Assembly (NCBI GenBank): GCA_017408885.1 | Contig: JAFQTT010000004.1 | Span: forward strand, 62,001 to 126,000 | Origin: Methanocorpusculum sp. | Lineage (GTDB): Archaea; Halobacteriota; Methanomicrobia; Methanomicrobiales; Methanocorpusculaceae | DNA length: 64,000 nucleotides | Direction of reading: 5' to 3' | Shown here: positions 4,589 to 57,980 of the stretch, piece after piece | Layout of the letters: every line of letters starts with the position of its first letter | Position numbering within the stretch: the first letter of the stretch is position 1 | Notes under the pieces: generated by a model | What the model saw: only the letters and a program-made list of their open reading frames with translations | What the model was told of the DNA's origin: nothing | Database searches by the model: none | Made by a program: the position numbers and the translations under genes

Positions 4589-6214
4589 CTACCTGCCTCC
4601 AAAACCTCCGCCGAACATAGTGCCGAGGCTTTGTATATCCAAAGCATCAGCATTGACTAAGGTTTTACTGTTCTTCTGTTCTTCATGTGTTGACGGGATA
4701 ACTCCTTTGAGCTGCCCCGTAATACTTTCTGCACGAAGTTCTCCGTAGGTTTTAATTGCTGACAACCCGTCCTTATATTCATCATATGAGTAGAAAGCTG
4801 TCGGGTCTGTTCTCACATAATCACGAATGAGTGAATCAATGGAATCAATTCTGTCTGCAAATGATGTTCCAAAGAACTCCTCTGCAATATATCCGAGATA
4901 TTCATGATACTGTTCTTTGTATGCGTCAACTTCCAGGAGCGAACCAATCAGCGGGCGCTCATCAAGAGAAATCTCTTCGGACACCGGTGTGTCGATTGGG
5001 AAATTAACAACACTTTCTGCATCTCCGCTCTGGAATGTTCCAAATGCTAAGTTGAAGTCCCAGGGAAGAATAGATATTCTGCCGTCCTCCTCATAGAGGT
5101 AGTAATTGTGCTTTAGAGAACTTACATAACTGTCGAGATTAACCAAAGCTGTATTTGCCGCAAAGTATCTTAGTACTTCATCAACATCCACATACTTTTC
5201 CAGATTATCTCCTTCTGCAAGTGCTTTGAGAGATTCAATCACGCGGGTCTTATCTGCATTCTTAACTCCGTCAAAGACTGCATTATCAAATATCTGACTG
5301 TAGCTTGAGATTTCATCATCAGTATACACAAGGTCTGCTCCGCCGCCGGAACCAAATCTTCCGCCCTTATCTGGTATTGAAAATCCGTCAGGCATTGTAA
5401 ACTCTCCCTCCGTTCTTCCTCCCTGCTGCATATCAGTCATTGAAAATCTGTCAGGCATAGTAAACTCTTCCTCCGTTCTTCCTCCCTGCTGCATATCAGT
5501 CATTGAAAATCCGTCAGGCATTGTAAACTCTTCCCCCGTTCTTCCTCCCTGCTGCATATCTGGCATGGATGGTCTGACTCCGTTCTGAGGCTGATTACCT
5601 CCCATATCCATAGTCTCAGGTTTGTAGAGCTCGCCGTAGTCAGAACCAAAGTTTCGCATAGCAAAATCCTCCTCCACCGCTTCTACCATCAGATACAGAC
5701 CAAAATACTCACCGTTGATGTAAACCGCGGCATACGCATGCAGAGGTGTTGGAACATCCATCTCCTCCATCAGCTCATAGGACAAAAACTCCTTCATGTA
5801 AGTCGGGTCCTGGTAATTATTGTTTAAAACAAACTCATCAAGCCCTGCAAAGCTCTGTCCTGACACATACTCATCAGCTTTTACCTTGAAACTGTAACGG
5901 TCGGAATCACTTGACGCAACAGAAGAAAGACTTGTCATACCTTTCGTCCTGATACCAACTCCTGAATAAACATCACTGTTTATCTCAACATCAGCAACAT
6001 GGAACTCCTCTGCTGTCGGGTTTTCAAGAATATCAGCCCAGTTGGATTCAGAGATTGTAATGTTTACAACAGTCACCGCATCCGAATCGAAGTACTTCGC
6101 ATACTCAGTGCCCCGCTCGTAAATCCCAAGGGATGCCGGAGAGAACATGAATATCAGGGTGAAAACCACCGCTGCCGCCACAAGAATCAGGGTAATTGTG
6201 TTTATGTGCTTCAT
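4589..6214 (-). CDS. CotH kinase family protein, membrane-anchored
   Basis: The product has 541 residues. An N-terminal hydrophobic helix (about residues 5-28) acts as signal or anchor, so the domain faces outward. The CotH-type fold is supported by GVGIRTKGMTS near 75, NINGEYFGLYLMVEAVEEDF-like sequence near 165-185, LYKPE, and ISILPWDFNLAFG near 385. CotH proteins are atypical extracellular kinases; here the substrate is unknown. Residues about 217-280 hold three copies of a 21-residue tandem repeat absent from ordinary CotH domains. The end is glycine-rich (GGGFGGR). The start overlaps the upstream stop (TAATG). It lies with DUF4956 and VTC-domain genes, a grouping known from many bacteria. 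Confidence 0.88.
   Translation of the reverse strand: MKHINTITLILVAAAVVFTLIFMFSPASLGIYERGTEYAKYFDSDAVTVVNITISESNWADILENPTAEEFHVADVEINSDVYSGVGIRTKGMTSLSSVASSDSDRYSFKVKADEYVSGQSFAGLDEFVLNNNYQDPTYMKEFLSYELMEEMDVPTPLHAYAAVYINGEYFGLYLMVEAVEEDFAMRNFGSDYGELYKPETMDMGGNQPQNGVRPSMPDMQQGGRTGEEFTMPDGFSMTDMQQGGRTEEEFTMPDRFSMTDMQQGGRTEGEFTMPDGFSIPDKGGRFGSGGGADLVYTDDEISSYSQIFDNAVFDGVKNADKTRVIESLKALAEGDNLEKYVDVDEVLRYFAANTALVNLDSYVSSLKHNYYLYEEDGRISILPWDFNLAFGTFQSGDAESVVNFPIDTPVSEEISLDERPLIGSLLEVDAYKEQYHEYLGYIAEEFFGTSFADRIDSIDSLIRDYVRTDPTAFYSYDEYKDGLSAIKTYGELRAESITGQLKGVIPSTHEEQKNSKTLVNADALDIQSLGTMFGGGFGGR
5387..5566 (-). repeat. 63-bp tandem coding repeat inside the CotH gene
   Basis: Three near-identical 63-bp units encode 21-residue blocks of the form DMQQGGRTEEEFTMPDGFSM. 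The units differ by a few bases (R/G, G/E and IPD/MTD exchanges), so repeat number may change by slippage without breaking the frame. It looks like a flexible, acidic, Met/Gln-rich linker inserted between two parts of the kinase-like domain. Confidence 0.85.
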
Positions 6215-8511: not shown

Positions 8512-8567
8512 CAGCTAAGACACAGTTTCACTCTTTTTCTAACTTTCATTCAACATCTTTCTTCTCA

Positions 8568-8665
8568 TTCATTCAATACCTTTTTCAACCACCCGTATGC
8601 CAGTGGCGCCTCGCGGGCATGCGGCTAAAGCCTTAGCCCACTTCCCTTTCATTCAATACCTTTTT
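8568..8665. repeat. Two-hairpin intergenic element, copy A, with 18-bp flanking direct repeats
   Basis: TTCATTCAATACCTTTTT occurs at 8568-8585 and again at 8648-8665 (period 80). Between them is a GC-rich core: GTATGCC pairs with GGCATGC around GGCGCC, followed by GGCTAA/TTAGCC as a second hairpin and then CCAC. The same plan occurs in the other copies of this family in the window. The right repeat abuts the TATA box of gap. Confidence 0.75.
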
Positions 8666-23260: not shown

Positions 23261-23441
23261 GATATCACAAAAAAGGCGAATCTTCCGTCGGGCGGAAAAT
23301 CCGCCCTGATATTTTTAGCGGACCTGACAGTACGAAGAGACACGTTTTAAGCCCTTTTTAATACGTACTGAGGTCATTTGCAGAATATAATCTGTGGCTT
23401 ATCTGATATATAGATTGGGGGTTAGAGTTTTTCATCAAATC

Positions 23442-23546
23442 ACATATGACAAGACGAGCATCACCCGCCCGTATGCCCGCGACGCCTGTGAGGCACGCGG
23501 AGGCATTGCCTCCTTAGCCTCAAGATTACATATGACAAGACGAGCA
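23442..23546. repeat. Two-hairpin intergenic element, copy B, with 19-bp flanking direct repeats
   Basis: ACATATGACAAGACGAGCA is present at 23442-23460 and 23528-23546 (period 86). The core has GTATGCC, GCGACGCCT, GGCACGC and then a GGAGGC-ATT-GCCTCC hairpin followed by CTTAGCC. The right direct repeat encodes the last residues of the small coiled-coil gene on the minus strand; the left copy would have supplied the same residues and a TGA before insertion. Confidence 0.8.
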
Positions 23547-23675
23547 GCTGCCGCGAAGACTGCGCTCAGTTAAGATTCCAATCTGGAGTTCAAGTTCTCT
23601 GACGCGCTCCTCGAGCTCTTCGTTATCCTTTTCCAGTCTGTCAAGCCTGATTGCCAACTCTTCTAATGAGACCAT
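23526..23675 (-). CDS. 49-residue coiled-coil protein
   Basis: ATG at 23675 opens a 49-residue frame starting MVSLEELAIRLDRLEKDNEE and continuing with clear heptads (LEERVRELELQIGIL), then RSLRGSCSSCHM. A TATA box (GTTATATAG, minus strand, 23698-23706) lies about 26 bp upstream, fitting a leaderless transcript. The CSSC pair at the end might bind metal or form a disulfide. It resembles short SlyX-like coiled-coil proteins in character only; no function is assigned. Its stop codon lies at the junction of element copy B. Confidence 0.6.
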   Translation of the reverse strand: MVSLEELAIRLDRLEKDNEELEERVRELELQIGILTERSLRGSCSSCHM

Positions 23676-23697
23676 ACAAAAATCTATGTCACTAATC

Positions 23698-23706
23698 TAT
23701 ATAACA
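23698..23706 (-). promoter_or_regulatory. TATA box of the coiled-coil gene
   Basis: Minus-strand GTTATATAG lies 23-31 bp upstream of the ATG at 23675. Confidence 0.5.
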
Positions 23707-23823
23707 GCACAGGTTAAGACATCAATGTCTATGATATGAAATCCTTTATTCTCTTACGCCAATTATTAATCAGGGAAGAGAACTGAAAACCAATCAGCCT
23801 TCCTGGATAAGTGAACCATTCAC

Positions 23824-23925
23824 ATGCCAACACACAAAAAAGAAGACAAGATGGCAAAGCAGGCAACAAAAAAAGAAGAAACTGCTAAGCCGTCAGTAGC
23901 AACAAAAAAATCTGCGCACAAATAA
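23824..23925 (+). CDS. 33-residue lysine-rich peptide
   Basis: ATG at 23824 starts MPTHKKEDKMAKQATKKEET and ends VATKKSAHK with TAA. About a third of the residues are lysine, with few hydrophobic residues, as in disordered nucleic-acid-binding tails. There is no obvious Shine-Dalgarno or TATA box close by, so coding is uncertain. The last five codons and the stop are part of the 25-bp direct repeat of element copy D, so the duplication preserved the end of this frame. Confidence 0.4.
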   Translation: MPTHKKEDKMAKQATKKEETAKPSVATKKSAHK

Positions 23926-24017
23926 ACTCATTGGAGCTAAGTCCCAAAGGGACGCATGCTCCTTAGGTGTCGCAGGCATACAAGCGACTGAGAAATCTGC
24001 GCACAAATAAACTCATT
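23908..24017. repeat. Two-hairpin intergenic element, copy D, with 25-bp flanking direct repeats
   Basis: A 25-bp sequence starting AAATCTGCGCACAAATAAAC is repeated exactly at 23908-23932 and 23993-24017 (period 85). On the minus strand the core reads GTATGC, TGCGACACCT, GCATGCG, then the GTCCC-TTT-GGGAC hairpin and CTTAGC, aligning block by block with copies A to C. It lies in the opposite orientation to copy B only 0.4 kb away. Confidence 0.85.
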
Positions 24018-37203: not shown

Positions 37204-38460
37204 TTATTCTTTCTTCTCGTCTGTGTCAACTATTCCAAGACGTTCTGGAAGAATAAGGTTTAAGACAATTCCAACAACAGCTGCTAATGCAACACCTGAG
37301 AGGTAGAGGTCTGCTTCAGGCATGATTGGGATTGCAAGACCTCCAATTGCGATAATCAGCATGATACCGACAATTAAGACGTTTCTCTGGTTCTTGAAGT
37401 CAACCTGATTCTCAACAAGAGTTCTCAGACCAACGCTTGCAATCATTCCAAAGAGAATAATACACATACCGCCAAGAACTGCGTTTGGAATCGAACTGAT
37501 AAATCCGCTGATATATCCAATGAAACTGATGAGGATTGCAAAGACTGCTGCAATCTCTAAGGTTCTTGGGTTGTAGTTTCTTGTTGCTGCAAGAACTCCT
37601 GTGTTTTCAGAGTAGGTTGTGTTTGCCGGACCTCCGACAAGACCTGCAAAGATAGATGCCAGACCGTCACCAACAAGTGTTCTGTGAAGTCCGGGGTCTT
37701 TGAAGAAGTCTTTTCCAACGATTGCACCGTTTGCGGAGATATCTCCTAAGTGTTCGATGAAGGTAACAATTGCGATTGGAGCAATCATTAAGATTGCAGA
37801 AACACTGAATGCCGGAAGGAAGAACTCAGGAACAGTGATGAGTGCTGCATCAGTAATCTTTGTGTAGTCAAGACCGATGTCAACGCCGAATGCATTGATA
37901 ATCATACATGAGATGTATCCTACAATCAGACCAAAGAGAATCGGGAGCATCTTGAAGAATCCCTTAAAGAACAGACTCACGATGATAACGGTTGCAATCA
38001 CAATAACTCCGACAAGGTAAGACCAGCCGTTAGTGAAGTAGCTGATTGCAGTTCCTGCAAGCATCAGACCAATAATCATCACAACAGGACCGGTAACTAC
38101 AGGCGGGAAGAGCTTTCTGATTCTATCTGCTCCAAAGAAGAAGACAAGTACTGCAAGCAGTAGATACACACAACCAGCAGCTACGATACCGCCTGTTGCA
38201 AACTCAATTCCTTCAGTTGCAGCTACGACCTGAATGGCTGCAATAAATGCAAAACTTGAACCAAGGAAAACTGGAACTTTGCCTTTTGTGACAAGATGGA
38301 AAATCAGCGTACCGATACCGGCACAGAACAATGCGACAGAGACTGGAAGCCCTGTTAGAATAGGGACGAGGATGGTCGAACCAAACATAGCAAAGACATG
38401 CTGAATGCCAAGTACGGTTGCCTTTCCTCCCTCCTTCAATTTAGAGGATTCACGCACCAT
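37204..38460 (-). CDS. Uracil/xanthine permease (NCS2 family)
   Basis: The 418-residue protein has about 14 membrane segments, with GIQHVFAMFGSTILVPILTGLPVSVALFCAG-like N-terminus (residues 18-50), a QHL-type motif and the family block VGGPANTTYSENTGVLAATR near 270-290. It imports uracil (or xanthine) with protons. The uracil phosphoribosyltransferase gene lies immediately upstream on the same strand, so uptake is coupled to salvage. Element copy E separates the two, in the position of the promoter of this gene. Confidence 0.93.
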   Translation of the reverse strand: MVRESSKLKEGGKATVLGIQHVFAMFGSTILVPILTGLPVSVALFCAGIGTLIFHLVTKGKVPVFLGSSFAFIAAIQVVAATEGIEFATGGIVAAGCVYLLLAVLVFFFGADRIRKLFPPVVTGPVVMIIGLMLAGTAISYFTNGWSYLVGVIVIATVIIVSLFFKGFFKMLPILFGLIVGYISCMIINAFGVDIGLDYTKITDAALITVPEFFLPAFSVSAILMIAPIAIVTFIEHLGDISANGAIVGKDFFKDPGLHRTLVGDGLASIFAGLVGGPANTTYSENTGVLAATRNYNPRTLEIAAVFAILISFIGYISGFISSIPNAVLGGMCIILFGMIASVGLRTLVENQVDFKNQRNVLIVGIMLIIAIGGLAIPIMPEADLYLSGVALAAVVGIVLNLILPERLGIVDTDEKKE

Positions 38461-38477
38461 GAAAGGTATATTGAACC

Positions 38478-38585
38478 CGAAAGTGTTTATTCTATAGGTT
38501 TGACTTTTGGGCTAAGCCCTTGGGCTTATGCCCTTTCTGGAGCCGCAGAGATATCTGCGCTCGAAAGTATTTATTCTATAGGTTT
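38478..38585. repeat. Intergenic element, copy E, with 24-bp flanking direct repeats
   Basis: The 24-bp sequences at 38478-38501 and 38562-38585 (core TTATTCTATAGGTTT) differ at one base; period 84. On the minus strand the core has a CGCAGAT-ATCTGCG palindrome and AAGCCC-AA-GGGCTT followed by AGCCC, the same two-hairpin plan as copies A to D but with different stem sequences. The right repeat contains two bases of the upp stop codon. Evidence for family membership is architecture and period more than sequence. Confidence 0.65.
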
Positions 38586-39213
38586 ACTTTGTTCCAAAGA
38601 TTCTATCGCCTGCATCGCCTAAGCCTGGTACGATGTAACAGTTATCGTTCAGACACTCATCAACTGATGCGGTGAAGATGTCGATATCGGGATGCTCCTC
38701 CTGTAAAACGCGGATTCCCTCAGGTGCTGCAACCAGACACATGAATCTGATATTCTTACATCTCCTTTCCTTCAGGAAATTAAGAGCCGCTGATGCACTG
38801 CCGCCTGTTGCAAGCATTGGGTCAACGACAATAACTTCTGCATCAACTGATTCTTTTGGAAGTTTGCAGTAATACTCAACCGGCTGATGTGTGGTCTCAT
38901 CACGGTAAAGACCGATATGACCAACTTTTGCTGTCGGCATCAGCTGCAGAAGACCGTCAGTCATGCCAAGTCCTGCTCTTAAAATCGGGACAACAACAAT
39001 ATCTTCTGCTGCAAGGATTGGAGCATCCATTTCGCGAATAGGAGTTTCAATGCGGATTTGTTTTGTCGGGAAGTTTCTGGTAACTTCGTATCCCATAAGC
39101 ATTGAGATTTCGGTTAAAAGCTCACGGAAACTTTTGGTGTTGGTGTTTTTCTCACGCATCATGCTGAGCTTGTGGAGAATCAGCGGATGGTTTAAAATAT
39201 GAACTTCGCTCAT
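38584..39213 (-). CDS. upp: Uracil phosphoribosyltransferase
   Basis: The 209-residue enzyme converts uracil and PRPP to UMP. Family marks are [21 protein letters not shown] at the start (3-20 region), [16 protein letters not shown] near 73, [18 protein letters not shown] near 125-142 (PRPP-binding) and the C-terminal [18 protein letters not shown] at 39213 gives the normal length; a longer frame upstream adds 30 hydrophobic residues not in the family and overlaps the divergent gene. It forms a salvage unit with the permease. Confidence 0.96.
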
Positions 39214-39301
39214 GCCTGTTTTGACTATTTGCTTTACGATGACTAATATGTTTTGGCAGAAAGCCCAACACATAAATATCCTGACAGCGGAAATAATTTT
39301 C

Positions 39302-39787
39302 ATGGCTGGAAGCTTTGAATGTATCCAGTGCGGAAAGTGCTGTCTTGGAATCGGTTCTATCGTAAAGATGGAGCGTCAGCTTTCGAAGTTTGGATATGTT
39401 GTTAAGAATGATGTGGTAAAAGAGATGCGCCAGGCTTTAATTACTCCTGAGTATCGCGATATTTTTGAAAATGACCACTCGGTTCAGGAACAGCATCCGT
39501 CAGCATGCTTCTTTGTAAGACGTCTTCCAACCGGAAAATATGTCTGCACAATTCACCCGTACAGACTTCTGATTTGCAGCTCGTATCACTGCTGTTCAGC
39601 ACGTATATCAAAAGACGGGGCAGAGGTTGGTAAGGTCAAAGGGCGCGTGTCCCTGGAATCAAAAGATGAAACACTCCTGGAACTCTGGCGCGAGAAGATA
39701 ACATCTGCTGACGATCCAAGCCGCGAGTACATTGCATCAGTTCTCGCTGAAGCAGGCTATGAGGTTTTGTTCTATGACGGCGAATGA
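39302..39787 (+). CDS. YkgJ-family zinc/iron cysteine-cluster protein
   Basis: The 161-residue protein has the N-terminal cluster [14 protein letters not shown] (5-18) and later [26 protein letters not shown] near 81-99. This arrangement is typical of YkgJ proteins, predicted to bind metal and of unknown activity. ATG at 39302 is chosen; the upstream in-frame ATG is on the far side of the divergent upp promoter. The next small gene starts inside its last 14 bases, indicating coupling. Confidence 0.85.
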
Positions 39788-42635: not shown

Positions 42636-43339
42636 TTTCAGTTGTTATTCCGGCATTTAACGAAGGAGAAGGAATCGAGGCATGCTTGAAGAGTGTCTGC
42701 GATCAGACACTTGCGCGTGATCAGTATGAGGTGATTGTTGTTGACGGAAATTCGAAGGACAACACCAGAGAGATTGCTGCAAAGTATGCGGATAAGGTTT
42801 TCATTCAGACAAGCAAGAAGGTCGGAGGTGCCAGGAACGATGGTGTGATGGAAGCAAAGTATGACTGGATTGTAACTGCTGATGCTGATTGTTTCTTCCC
42901 GCGTACATGGCTTGAGACGATTGTAAATGATTTCAAGAACCATCCGGAGGCTTCTACTTTCTATGGGCCGATTTATCCTCTCGAGCCTGGATTAAAGCAT
43001 AAGATTGAGGTTTTCCTCTACAACAGAGTTGTCTGGCTCGGCGGAAAGACCGGTATTTTCTATGCAACGCTTGGTGCAAATACTGCCTTTAGAAAGAAGG
43101 AGTTTATCGAGGCTGGAATGTACCGCGTCTGTGATGCAGGAGACGACTGGGAGCTTCCAAAGCGGATGAAGCATTTCGGAAAGGTTCATCTTGATATGAA
43201 GATGGTTGTCGGGTTCTCTATGAGGAGATATATTAACTTTGGACTTTTCCGTTCTGCATTCCAGTGGTTCTATGTGGTGGCTAAAGGAGGAGATTCCGAT
43301 AAGCACCAGTATATGGGAAAGACGTATACGAAGAAGTAA
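42632..43339 (+). CDS. Family 2 glycosyltransferase
   Basis: The 235-residue protein has the GT-A fold start MISVVIPAFNEGEGIEACLK, the DxD-like VTADADCFFP near 76-85, and ANTAFRKKEF near 148. A weakly hydrophobic region near 110-130 may touch the membrane. It should move a sugar from a nucleotide donor to a lipid or protein carrier. It is coupled by ATGA to the flavoprotein gene. Element copy C starts a few bases after its stop. Confidence 0.92.
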   Translation: MISVVIPAFNEGEGIEACLKSVCDQTLARDQYEVIVVDGNSKDNTREIAAKYADKVFIQTSKKVGGARNDGVMEAKYDWIVTADADCFFPRTWLETIVNDFKNHPEASTFYGPIYPLEPGLKHKIEVFLYNRVVWLGGKTGIFYATLGANTAFRKKEFIEAGMYRVCDAGDDWELPKRMKHFGKVHLDMKMVVGFSMRRYINFGLFRSAFQWFYVVAKGGDSDKHQYMGKTYTKK

Positions 43340-43345
43340 TTGCCA

Positions 43346-43400
43346 GTATGCCGCGACGCCTTATCCGCATGCGGCTCTTCGAGCCTTAGCGTGAGGGTGT
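43346..43400 (+). repeat. Two-hairpin intergenic element, copy C, without flanking repeats
   Basis: Core GTATGCC-GCGACGCCT-TATC-CGCATGCGG, then a GGCTC-TTC-GAGCC hairpin and CTTAGCG. It matches copies A, B and D in block order. No direct repeat of the flanks at a distance of 75-95 bp could be found. It starts 6 bp after the glycosyltransferase stop. Confidence 0.75.
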
Positions 43401-57635: not shown

Positions 57636-57980
57636 AAATCAATCCATTTTCTATTCTCTGCTGAAAAAAATTAGTAATTCCGCGGATCGCCAAAAATAAA
57701 AACCTTCAGAAAACACTCCAACACAAAAACAAACCGCTAAAAATGTTTATACTAATTTACACAAATTAGTAATAATACACATATTACACACATTACACAA
57801 AACATACAGAATACACAAACATCTCCTCTTACACCAATTACCTGATTTACACAACGGCAGAAAAATTAGTAATGACGCACTGTTCAATAACTCAAACTCT
57901 GTGTATAATCGTTTGATTGAAAAATAACTCTTTAAAAACGTTTATACTAATTTACATAAATTAGTAATTGCAGAGCTCTG
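57636..57980. promoter_or_regulatory. 345-bp region with palindromic ATTAGTAAT sites downstream of the Fic gene
   Basis: No gene is seen. ACTAATTTACACAAATTAGT (57751-57770) and ACTAATTTACATAAATTAGT (57946-57965) are perfect or near-perfect 20-bp palindromes, each preceded by TAAAAA(T/C)GTTTAT and followed by AAT. Half-sites ATTAGTAAT occur also at 57670-57678 and about 57865-57873. The repeat spacing is 195 bp. GTTTATACT could serve as a TATA box for a short transcript running toward or against the Fic gene. Confidence 0.65.

Follow-up and report, generated by a model that had tools for sequence, protein, structure and literature searches.

Dispersed two-hairpin elements with long, site-specific flanking repeats in Methanocorpusculum: a candidate family of small mobile elements

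The window considered here, that is the whole 64-kb stretch of DNA that was analysed, belongs to a Methanocorpusculum genome of 1,553,516 bp (G000) and holds five copies of a short hairpin core, four of which lie between long direct repeats. The copies are listed with their positions in the window, and for each core the match to the covariance model R1 and the position on the contig (C4) are given.

8568..8585: upstream direct repeat of copy A, 18 bp, exact
8587..8644, plus strand: hairpin core of copy A (R1 match 5.9e-15; C4:70587-70644), with CAC/GTG in place of CGC/GCG in the first stem
8648..8665: downstream direct repeat of copy A, 18 bp, exact, extending into a T-rich region upstream of the next gene
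23442..23460: upstream direct repeat of copy B, 19 bp, exact
23463..23525, plus strand: hairpin core of copy B (R1 match 5.0e-16; C4:85463-85525)
23528..23546: downstream direct repeat of copy B, 19 bp, exact, covering the last codons and the stop of a 49-aa minus-strand ORF (23526-23675)
23908..23932: first direct repeat of copy D, 25 bp, exact, covering the last codons and the stop of a 33-aa ORF (23824-23925)
23929..23989, minus strand: hairpin core of copy D (R1 match 2.0e-15; C4:85929-85989), the model edge overlapping the first repeat by 4 bases
23993..24017: second direct repeat of copy D, 25 bp, exact
38478..38501: first direct repeat of copy E, identical to its partner at 23 of 24 bp
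38504..38562, minus strand: hairpin core of copy E (R1 match 8.7e-10; C4:100504-100562), a diverged family member between the minus-strand ORFs 37204-38460 and 38584-39303
38562..38585: second direct repeat of copy E, directly past the stop of ORF 38584-39303
43338..43397, plus strand: hairpin core of copy F (R1 match 3.4e-9; C4:105338-105397), without clear flanking repeats

A sequence-only reading of this DNA had claimed four repeat pairs, with periods of 80, 86, 85 and 84 bp, around a common core. An unbiased search for direct repeats across the window (18-base windows, at most one mismatch, periods 50-250) recovered all four and placed them at 8566-8585 (A, period 80), 23439-23460 (B, period 86), 23906-23932 (D, period 85) and 38478-38501 (E, period 84). 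The repeat sequences agree with the earlier account and do differ between sites, and the core is indeed common to A, B, D and E, which all match R1, with D and E on the strand opposite to A and B; copy F was absent from that reading. The scan gave seven rows in total; of the other three, a 63-bp tandem repeat accounts for two and the last is a 195-bp pair at 57738. No repeat pair was returned by the same scan from 20 first-order Markov copies of the window. The tandem repeat (5376-5560, 2.9 copies, 95% matches) has a period divisible by three, which suggests that it is a putative coding sequence. The pair at 57738-57970 consists of an AT-rich segment of about 35-40 bp present twice, 195 bp apart, each time with a palindrome-like part (ATTTACA..AAATTAGTAAT), and these segments may be paired promoter or operator sites.

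The core family was collected from G000 with the pattern GTATGCNNGCGACNCCT, allowing up to two mismatches, which occurs at 23 places, against 9 for the same pattern read backwards. On inspection, the 23 places divide into 18 true copies, one related hairpin module (L017) and four chance matches. Alignment A1, on which R1 was built, has 19 rows, namely the 18 true copies and copy E, and its consensus reads CGCCCGTATGCCCGCGACGCCT, two or three free bases, then GGGGCATGCGnCTnnnGnCTTAGCCCC. The core is composed of two hairpins, with 12 pairs in three helices that are kept in 92.8% of the cells of A1; this structure was drawn by eye from the same rows that served for the covariation test, in which both sides change in 9 of the 12 pairs and 33 cells are counted, compared with 9.4 in shuffles, a value reached by none of 500. 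Four of five covariation measures were unreached in 500 shuffles and the remaining one, further pair types, was reached by 14, and the signal collapses once the partner is slid by 1-3 columns. The core has no terminal inverted repeats, its consensus ends being CGCCCGTATGCC and CTTAGCCCCAA. Whether the genome holds further copies, a check attached to the earlier reading, is answered by R1, which matches 27 places at E<2e-4 in the 1.55 Mb, five of them inside the window, and a known Rfam family was rejected, with no core match in the window at the gathering score and none in six copy loci up to E=5.

Within the order, R1 finds the family in six Methanocorpusculum genomes (G000, G094, G102, G114, G138 and G141), with 13-28 matches each at E<=0.01, and gives no match in the 19 other genomes of the genus; four of the 199 genomes of the order, none of them Methanocorpusculum, give a single marginal match (E 9e-4 to 9.4e-3). 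In the class-wide search of 232 genomes, E<=0.001 is reached by the same six genomes and by one marginal match, the order and class searches having been run with the stricter filters meant for large sets. The six carriers are incomplete MAGs (69-92% complete) and form one clade with support 100/100 in a tree of the gapdh region that takes in 16 of the 25 genus genomes, G102 adjoining G000 (92/95). A 19-base core pattern was found in five Methanocorpusculum MAGs of a GTDB-based contig collection, obtained from cattle colon (RGIG409), goat caecum (RGIG1678), buffalo rectum (RGIG7729) and water deer colon (RGIG8706), the fifth (SIG11) having a title without a host. The 28 stretches given by that scan comprise 19 with Methanocorpusculum titles, eight from unrelated bacteria, each with a single match that was put down to chance, and one contig (L140, JAFVSN010000055.1) from a sheep colon MAG labelled Lachnospiraceae; several stretches of the latter match carrier loci at 83-99.6%, and to judge from this similarity it is probably misbinned Methanocorpusculum DNA. 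A viral or plasmid origin was rejected, as viral contigs had no exact match to two core patterns and one 61-base copy matched nothing in plasmids.

The flanking repeats were assessed over the whole family. R1 gave 131 matches in 96 fetched stretches, of which 121 copies were kept after removal of four duplicates from overlapping stretches and six weak, partial or edge matches; three weak matches in G102 (on C4, C12 and C17, 26.7 bits each) were left out of the set. Repeats with a score of at least 16 flank 60 of the 121 copies; for control points the counts are 12 of 1755 at intergenic positions and 1 of 1410 at positions drawn at random from the same loci. At score 14 the corresponding figures are 64 of 121, 20 of 1755 and 6 of 1410, with none among 1210 shuffled flanks. 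The comparison with shuffled DNA, which the sequence-only reading had named as a check, is in its favour, and a chance origin of the repeats was rejected on the intergenic control points and the Markov copies. When upstream and downstream flanks were taken from different copies, 1.5% reached score 13. The copies are not independent, as 46 of the 121 fall in 18 site groups common to several species, and with each shared site counted once 49 of 93 units have repeats at score 16; the copies of G000 taken by themselves have repeats at score 13 in 15 of 27 cases. After setting aside 57 copies below score 14, four gapped pairs, four pairs above 70 bp and two repeats of an earlier pair, there remain 54 distinct ungapped pairs of up to 70 bp, which measure 17-67 bp (median 28.5, with 50 of the 54 within 18-50 bp); longer repeats reach 116 bp, arrays among them. 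Neither junction of these 54 pairs shows a conspicuous base motif, and a target motif for insertion is thus not apparent there.

The earlier reading had also pointed to sites lacking the core as a check, and such sites, with about one copy of the repeat, were found in sister genomes at B, D and E. Site E in G114 has the same gene order and one copy of the repeat segment without the core, and in G138 and G094 the core is likewise missing, and behind the single segment copy stands a partial 12-bp echo (TTTATACCATAG, TTTAGACCATAG) that could be a scar or chance; the site is filled in G102 and, on two contigs, in G141, one of these contigs having a further partial core. Site B is filled in G000, G094, G114 and G138 and holds one repeat copy without the core in G102, which is the sister of G000, so this site is best explained by a precise loss of the core in G102. 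Site D, filled in G000 and G114, has one related repeat copy and no core in G102. Site A is filled in G102; in four other carriers (G114 best) 9-18 bases from the end of the downstream segment occur once, and the upstream flank of these genomes does not align. On the tree, site E is best explained by two gains or by one gain and two losses. The repeats seem to offer a route for exact deletion, and the core-less sites may be precise losses, which alone do not prove a never-filled state; the non-carrier species are too diverged at the places of A, B, D and E to act as empty-site references.

Repetition of whole units was observed as well. One locus (L024) has three units and three others (L082, L122 and L089) have two each, the period being 84 in a three-unit array of G000; head-to-tail repetition was seen at a few sites with 2-3 units, most copies being single. 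A simple tandem repeat is an unlikely reading of the family, given that the repeats differ between sites and that A, B, D and E are all missing from the TRF output at score 50. The proposal that the copies are insertions which duplicate their target, and not tandem repeats, is thus supported by the further copies, the excess of repeats and the core-less sites, with mobility deduced from these; the part of it that set insertion against expansion has to be qualified, because the arrays of 2-3 units show that expansion through the repeats belongs to the story.

The core itself varies in its make-up. Long forms of 102-117 bp account for 14 of the 121 copies and contain an extra hairpin module, M2, which by inspection lies between GCGAC and CCT in 12 of them and within the second hairpin in the other two (L109 and L118); at three site groups the longer form of one species corresponds to a short form in another. 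The M2 pattern (GAGCAAG..CTTGCGAC) was found in 15 of the 25 genus genomes, non-carriers included, the reversed control pattern giving one hit, and its hairpins are sometimes arrayed at a spacing of 51-52 bp (for instance in L248, L249, L251, L252 and L254 among the loci with the pattern). The genus thus has a wider stock of hairpin modules, and ten M2 loci are without long duplication, such duplications being seen only with the core family.

These ten loci are also relevant to another reading, in which the hairpins spread without duplicating their target and slippage or template switching at the hairpin later duplicated the flank across it. Twelve M2 loci were read, of which two are long forms of the family and the other ten have no long flanking duplication (one of them, L252, has a 17-bp repeat that forms part of the hairpin array), a point for this reading. 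It agrees equally with such a history that clear repeats are missing from 56 of the 121 copies (score below 13), that the repeat length is variable, with no fixed stagger, and that the arrays point to unstable units. Against it, 49 of 65 repeat-bearing copies have the two repeats no more than 8 bases from the ends of the model, some pairs are identical over 24-32 bp, and of the 18 shared site groups eight have repeats (score >=13) in all copies and six in none, with four mixed. Furthermore, slippage would ordinarily be expected to duplicate the core along with the flank (X-E-X-E), so that one more exact loss would have to follow. Duplication at the time of insertion is therefore preferred, and a secondary origin of the repeats is considered unlikely. 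One copy without clear repeats (L128) looks like a decayed case, as its sister copies have them.

In the second hairpin the model strand has 9 G-U and 24 A-C cells, and the wobble pairs thus fall on the complement, with no G-U excess on the model strand; in RNA folding the model strand is better in just 23 of 117 distinct copies, the complement usually being the better one. If RNA takes part, then, the complement strand is probably the form involved. Both observations would suit a retroposition in which a small structured RNA is copied by target-primed reverse transcription, with SINE-like duplications of variable length such as those found here; most R1 matches, however, cover the whole model, no 3' tail was noticed, and the reverse transcriptase domain RVT_1 was matched in only three of the six carriers (G000, G114 and G094) and also in three of the 19 other genus genomes (G048, G078 and G030), although the incompleteness of the MAGs weakens the absences. 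The match in G000 is a 1112-aa protein below the Pfam cut-off. On balance, such an RNA route appears improbable, about as much as a secondary origin of the repeats.

Conservation of pairing was further examined at 19 shared site groups, hand-chosen with site A included and with rows that do not belong together omitted. Over 23 comparisons, 28 cells of changed second-hairpin pairs were found, 17 compensated and 11 broken or wobble, five of the 17 coming from one single comparison, and from this it follows that pairing is mostly kept after insertion or that copies are replaced by others. Maintained stems could point to a structured RNA or DNA element that serves the host, as a regulator or terminator, and does not move. 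The gene context argues otherwise: by crude ORF calls, 35 of the 121 copies are in sense, 21 in antisense, 20 convergent, 13 divergent, 16 inside an ORF call and 16 not placed, which gives no strong rule of orientation or context, and gene 3' ends as a general target, hinted at by B, D and E, are not upheld across all copies. Since, in addition, 75 of the 121 copies lie outside any recognised shared site (a figure inflated by MAG gaps) and the flanking duplications are site-specific, a fixed host function is very doubtful, the least probable of the readings considered. At two loci (L079 and L080) copies of the element lie between genes of about 165-170 aa (MADF...), tandem paralogues by eye. 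In G138 and G114 copies form clusters that resembled attC arrays; integron-like cassettes were set aside, as these clusters adjoin genes with the look of tandem paralogues and several members have flanking repeats of their own.

Several enzymes were considered as the possible mover. The Y1 transposase (PF01797) has no match in the 25 genus genomes, several of which are incomplete, and was matched in 5 of 14 control genomes. Cas1 (PF01867) is matched in all 25; the homologue of G000 (L228 6618-7538, G000:C9 152617-153537) is flanked by an archaemetzincin-like gene (Peptidase_M54 match) and a GTPase-like gene, the latter named by inspection, and no other cas gene was noticed in the ORF list around it. 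When this single protein was aligned to 4n06, Leu and Tyr were found in place of a Glu and a His, which we take to be catalytic residues, the Asp being kept, and the G000 protein seems by this alignment to be short of two catalytic residues. A CRISPR-free Cas1 acting as integrase is accordingly regarded as an unlikely mover, PF01867 being present in all 25 genomes.

DDE transposases bear on the possibility that the cores are miniature derivatives of an insertion sequence of the IS1634/IS1549 type. These sequences are described as producing variable direct repeats of 8-514 bp upon insertion, and a 2008 paper says that a model for this was still lacking (PMC2266710). The resemblance to the long variable duplications of the core family (17-67 bp in the 54 pairs, longer ones also existing, with an origin at insertion deduced) speaks for a derivation, and a DDE transposase pair is present in an apparent integrated element of G000 (L242 6949-11359, G000:C3), where two DDE ORFs, one of them by inspection with a SWIM-like zinc motif, are near a tyrosine-integrase-like ORF; G094 has a DDE pair as well, G138 a related gene and G102 a fragment. 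On the other hand, IS1634 and IS1549 are full insertion sequences with a transposase and carry terminal inverted repeats, whereas the core family has no transposase and its ends are not mutual inverted repeats, and no core copies were seen at the borders of the DDE transposase genes in the stretches taken. DDE_Tnp_1 is matched in 10 of the 25 genus genomes, that is in four of the six carriers and six of the 19 others, without a match in G114 and G141, both incomplete MAGs. A descent from such insertion sequences is accordingly quite improbable, only slightly less so than a host function. Neither a reverse transcriptase nor a DDE transposase has a clean link to the carriers, and none of the RVT_1, Cas1 and DDE_Tnp_1 candidates is convincing in carriers that are 69-92% complete; the Y1, RVT_1, Cas1 and DDE_Tnp_1 searches of the 25 genus genomes thus did not reveal a responsible enzyme. 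Nor was a gene noticed between the two ends of any copy.

Among known systems, mobile GC clusters of yeast mitochondria come nearest in behaviour, together with other mitochondrial hairpin elements, and IS1634 and IS1549 come nearest in footprint; judged from their descriptions, the core family fails one defining feature of each. The yeast clusters of the GC42 family are very small, GC-rich, palindromic and mostly intergenic, vary between strains, merge and shuffle their modules, and have an unsettled mechanism of movement (PMC4478555). The merging of modules has its counterpart here in an extra module that is present or absent at one site and occurs in two positions. The yeast clusters have short flanking duplications (AG or ACT) in a mitochondrial genome (PMC4478555), while the Methanocorpusculum duplications are mostly 18-50 bp and lie in an archaeal chromosome. 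The mitochondrial trait of a 2-3 bp duplication or none is at odds with repeats of at least 17 bp at about half of the copies, and the other copies do not contradict it. Sponge and Allomyces mitochondria have repetitive and double hairpin elements that are similar in their single and double hairpins dispersed between genes, and those of Allomyces are reported to be without flanking duplications (PMC2800124), unlike the long ones found at about half of the present copies.

REP/RAYT and IS200/IS605-derived elements are also small intergenic hairpins, and they differ in that no Y1 match was found in the 25 genus genomes; these systems are not known to make long target duplications. A CRISPR array combines a constant repeat with a variable spacer, and the present family reverses this arrangement, with a constant core and a repeat that is different at each site. 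Among the matches listed in open-access literature, a family of this kind in Methanocorpusculum is undescribed, subscription papers and preprints lying outside that coverage.

Taken together, the dispersed covarying two-hairpin cores, the site-specific repeats, the filled and core-less sites and the arrays are best accommodated by non-autonomous mobile hairpin elements of about 50-60 bp, which would insert with a long target duplication of variable length and later be lost or multiplied through the repeats, a reading that we hold to be probable, with some reservation. The excess of repeats, the core-less sites, the covariation, the restriction of carriers to one clade, the arrays and the occurrence of long and short forms at the same site all speak for it; the lack of an enzyme, the copies without clear repeats, the lack of a junction motif, the possible precise losses and the lack of a G-U excess weigh against it. 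Movement is inferred from dispersal and from presence or absence at sites, not seen. A trans-acting enzyme or a repair process might insert a hairpin-forming copy, made of single-stranded DNA or reverse-transcribed from RNA, where a staggered break leaves long overhangs, for the most part between genes, and filling of the overhangs would produce the target duplication. The direct repeats could later let the unit expand into arrays or drop out precisely, leaving one repeat.

Compared with the systems above, we rate the core family as another sort of small hairpin mobile element, a wholly new insertion mechanism being also possible. It is conceivable, at somewhat less than even chances, that a gene-free hairpin of about 60 nt represents a new class of archaeal mobile element, moved in trans, which duplicates 18-50 bp of its target in most cases and close to 100 bp in some, trades hairpin modules and is lost exactly by way of its own repeats. 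Mitochondria have hairpin mobile elements of very small size, the movement of which is unsettled (PMC2800124, PMC4478555), and for the long variable target duplications of IS1634 and IS1549 a 2008 paper notes that no model had been put forward (PMC2266710). With many copies in an archaeal chromosome, a rich footprint and sites that differ between related species, the Methanocorpusculum family makes the mechanism testable by comparison of strains.
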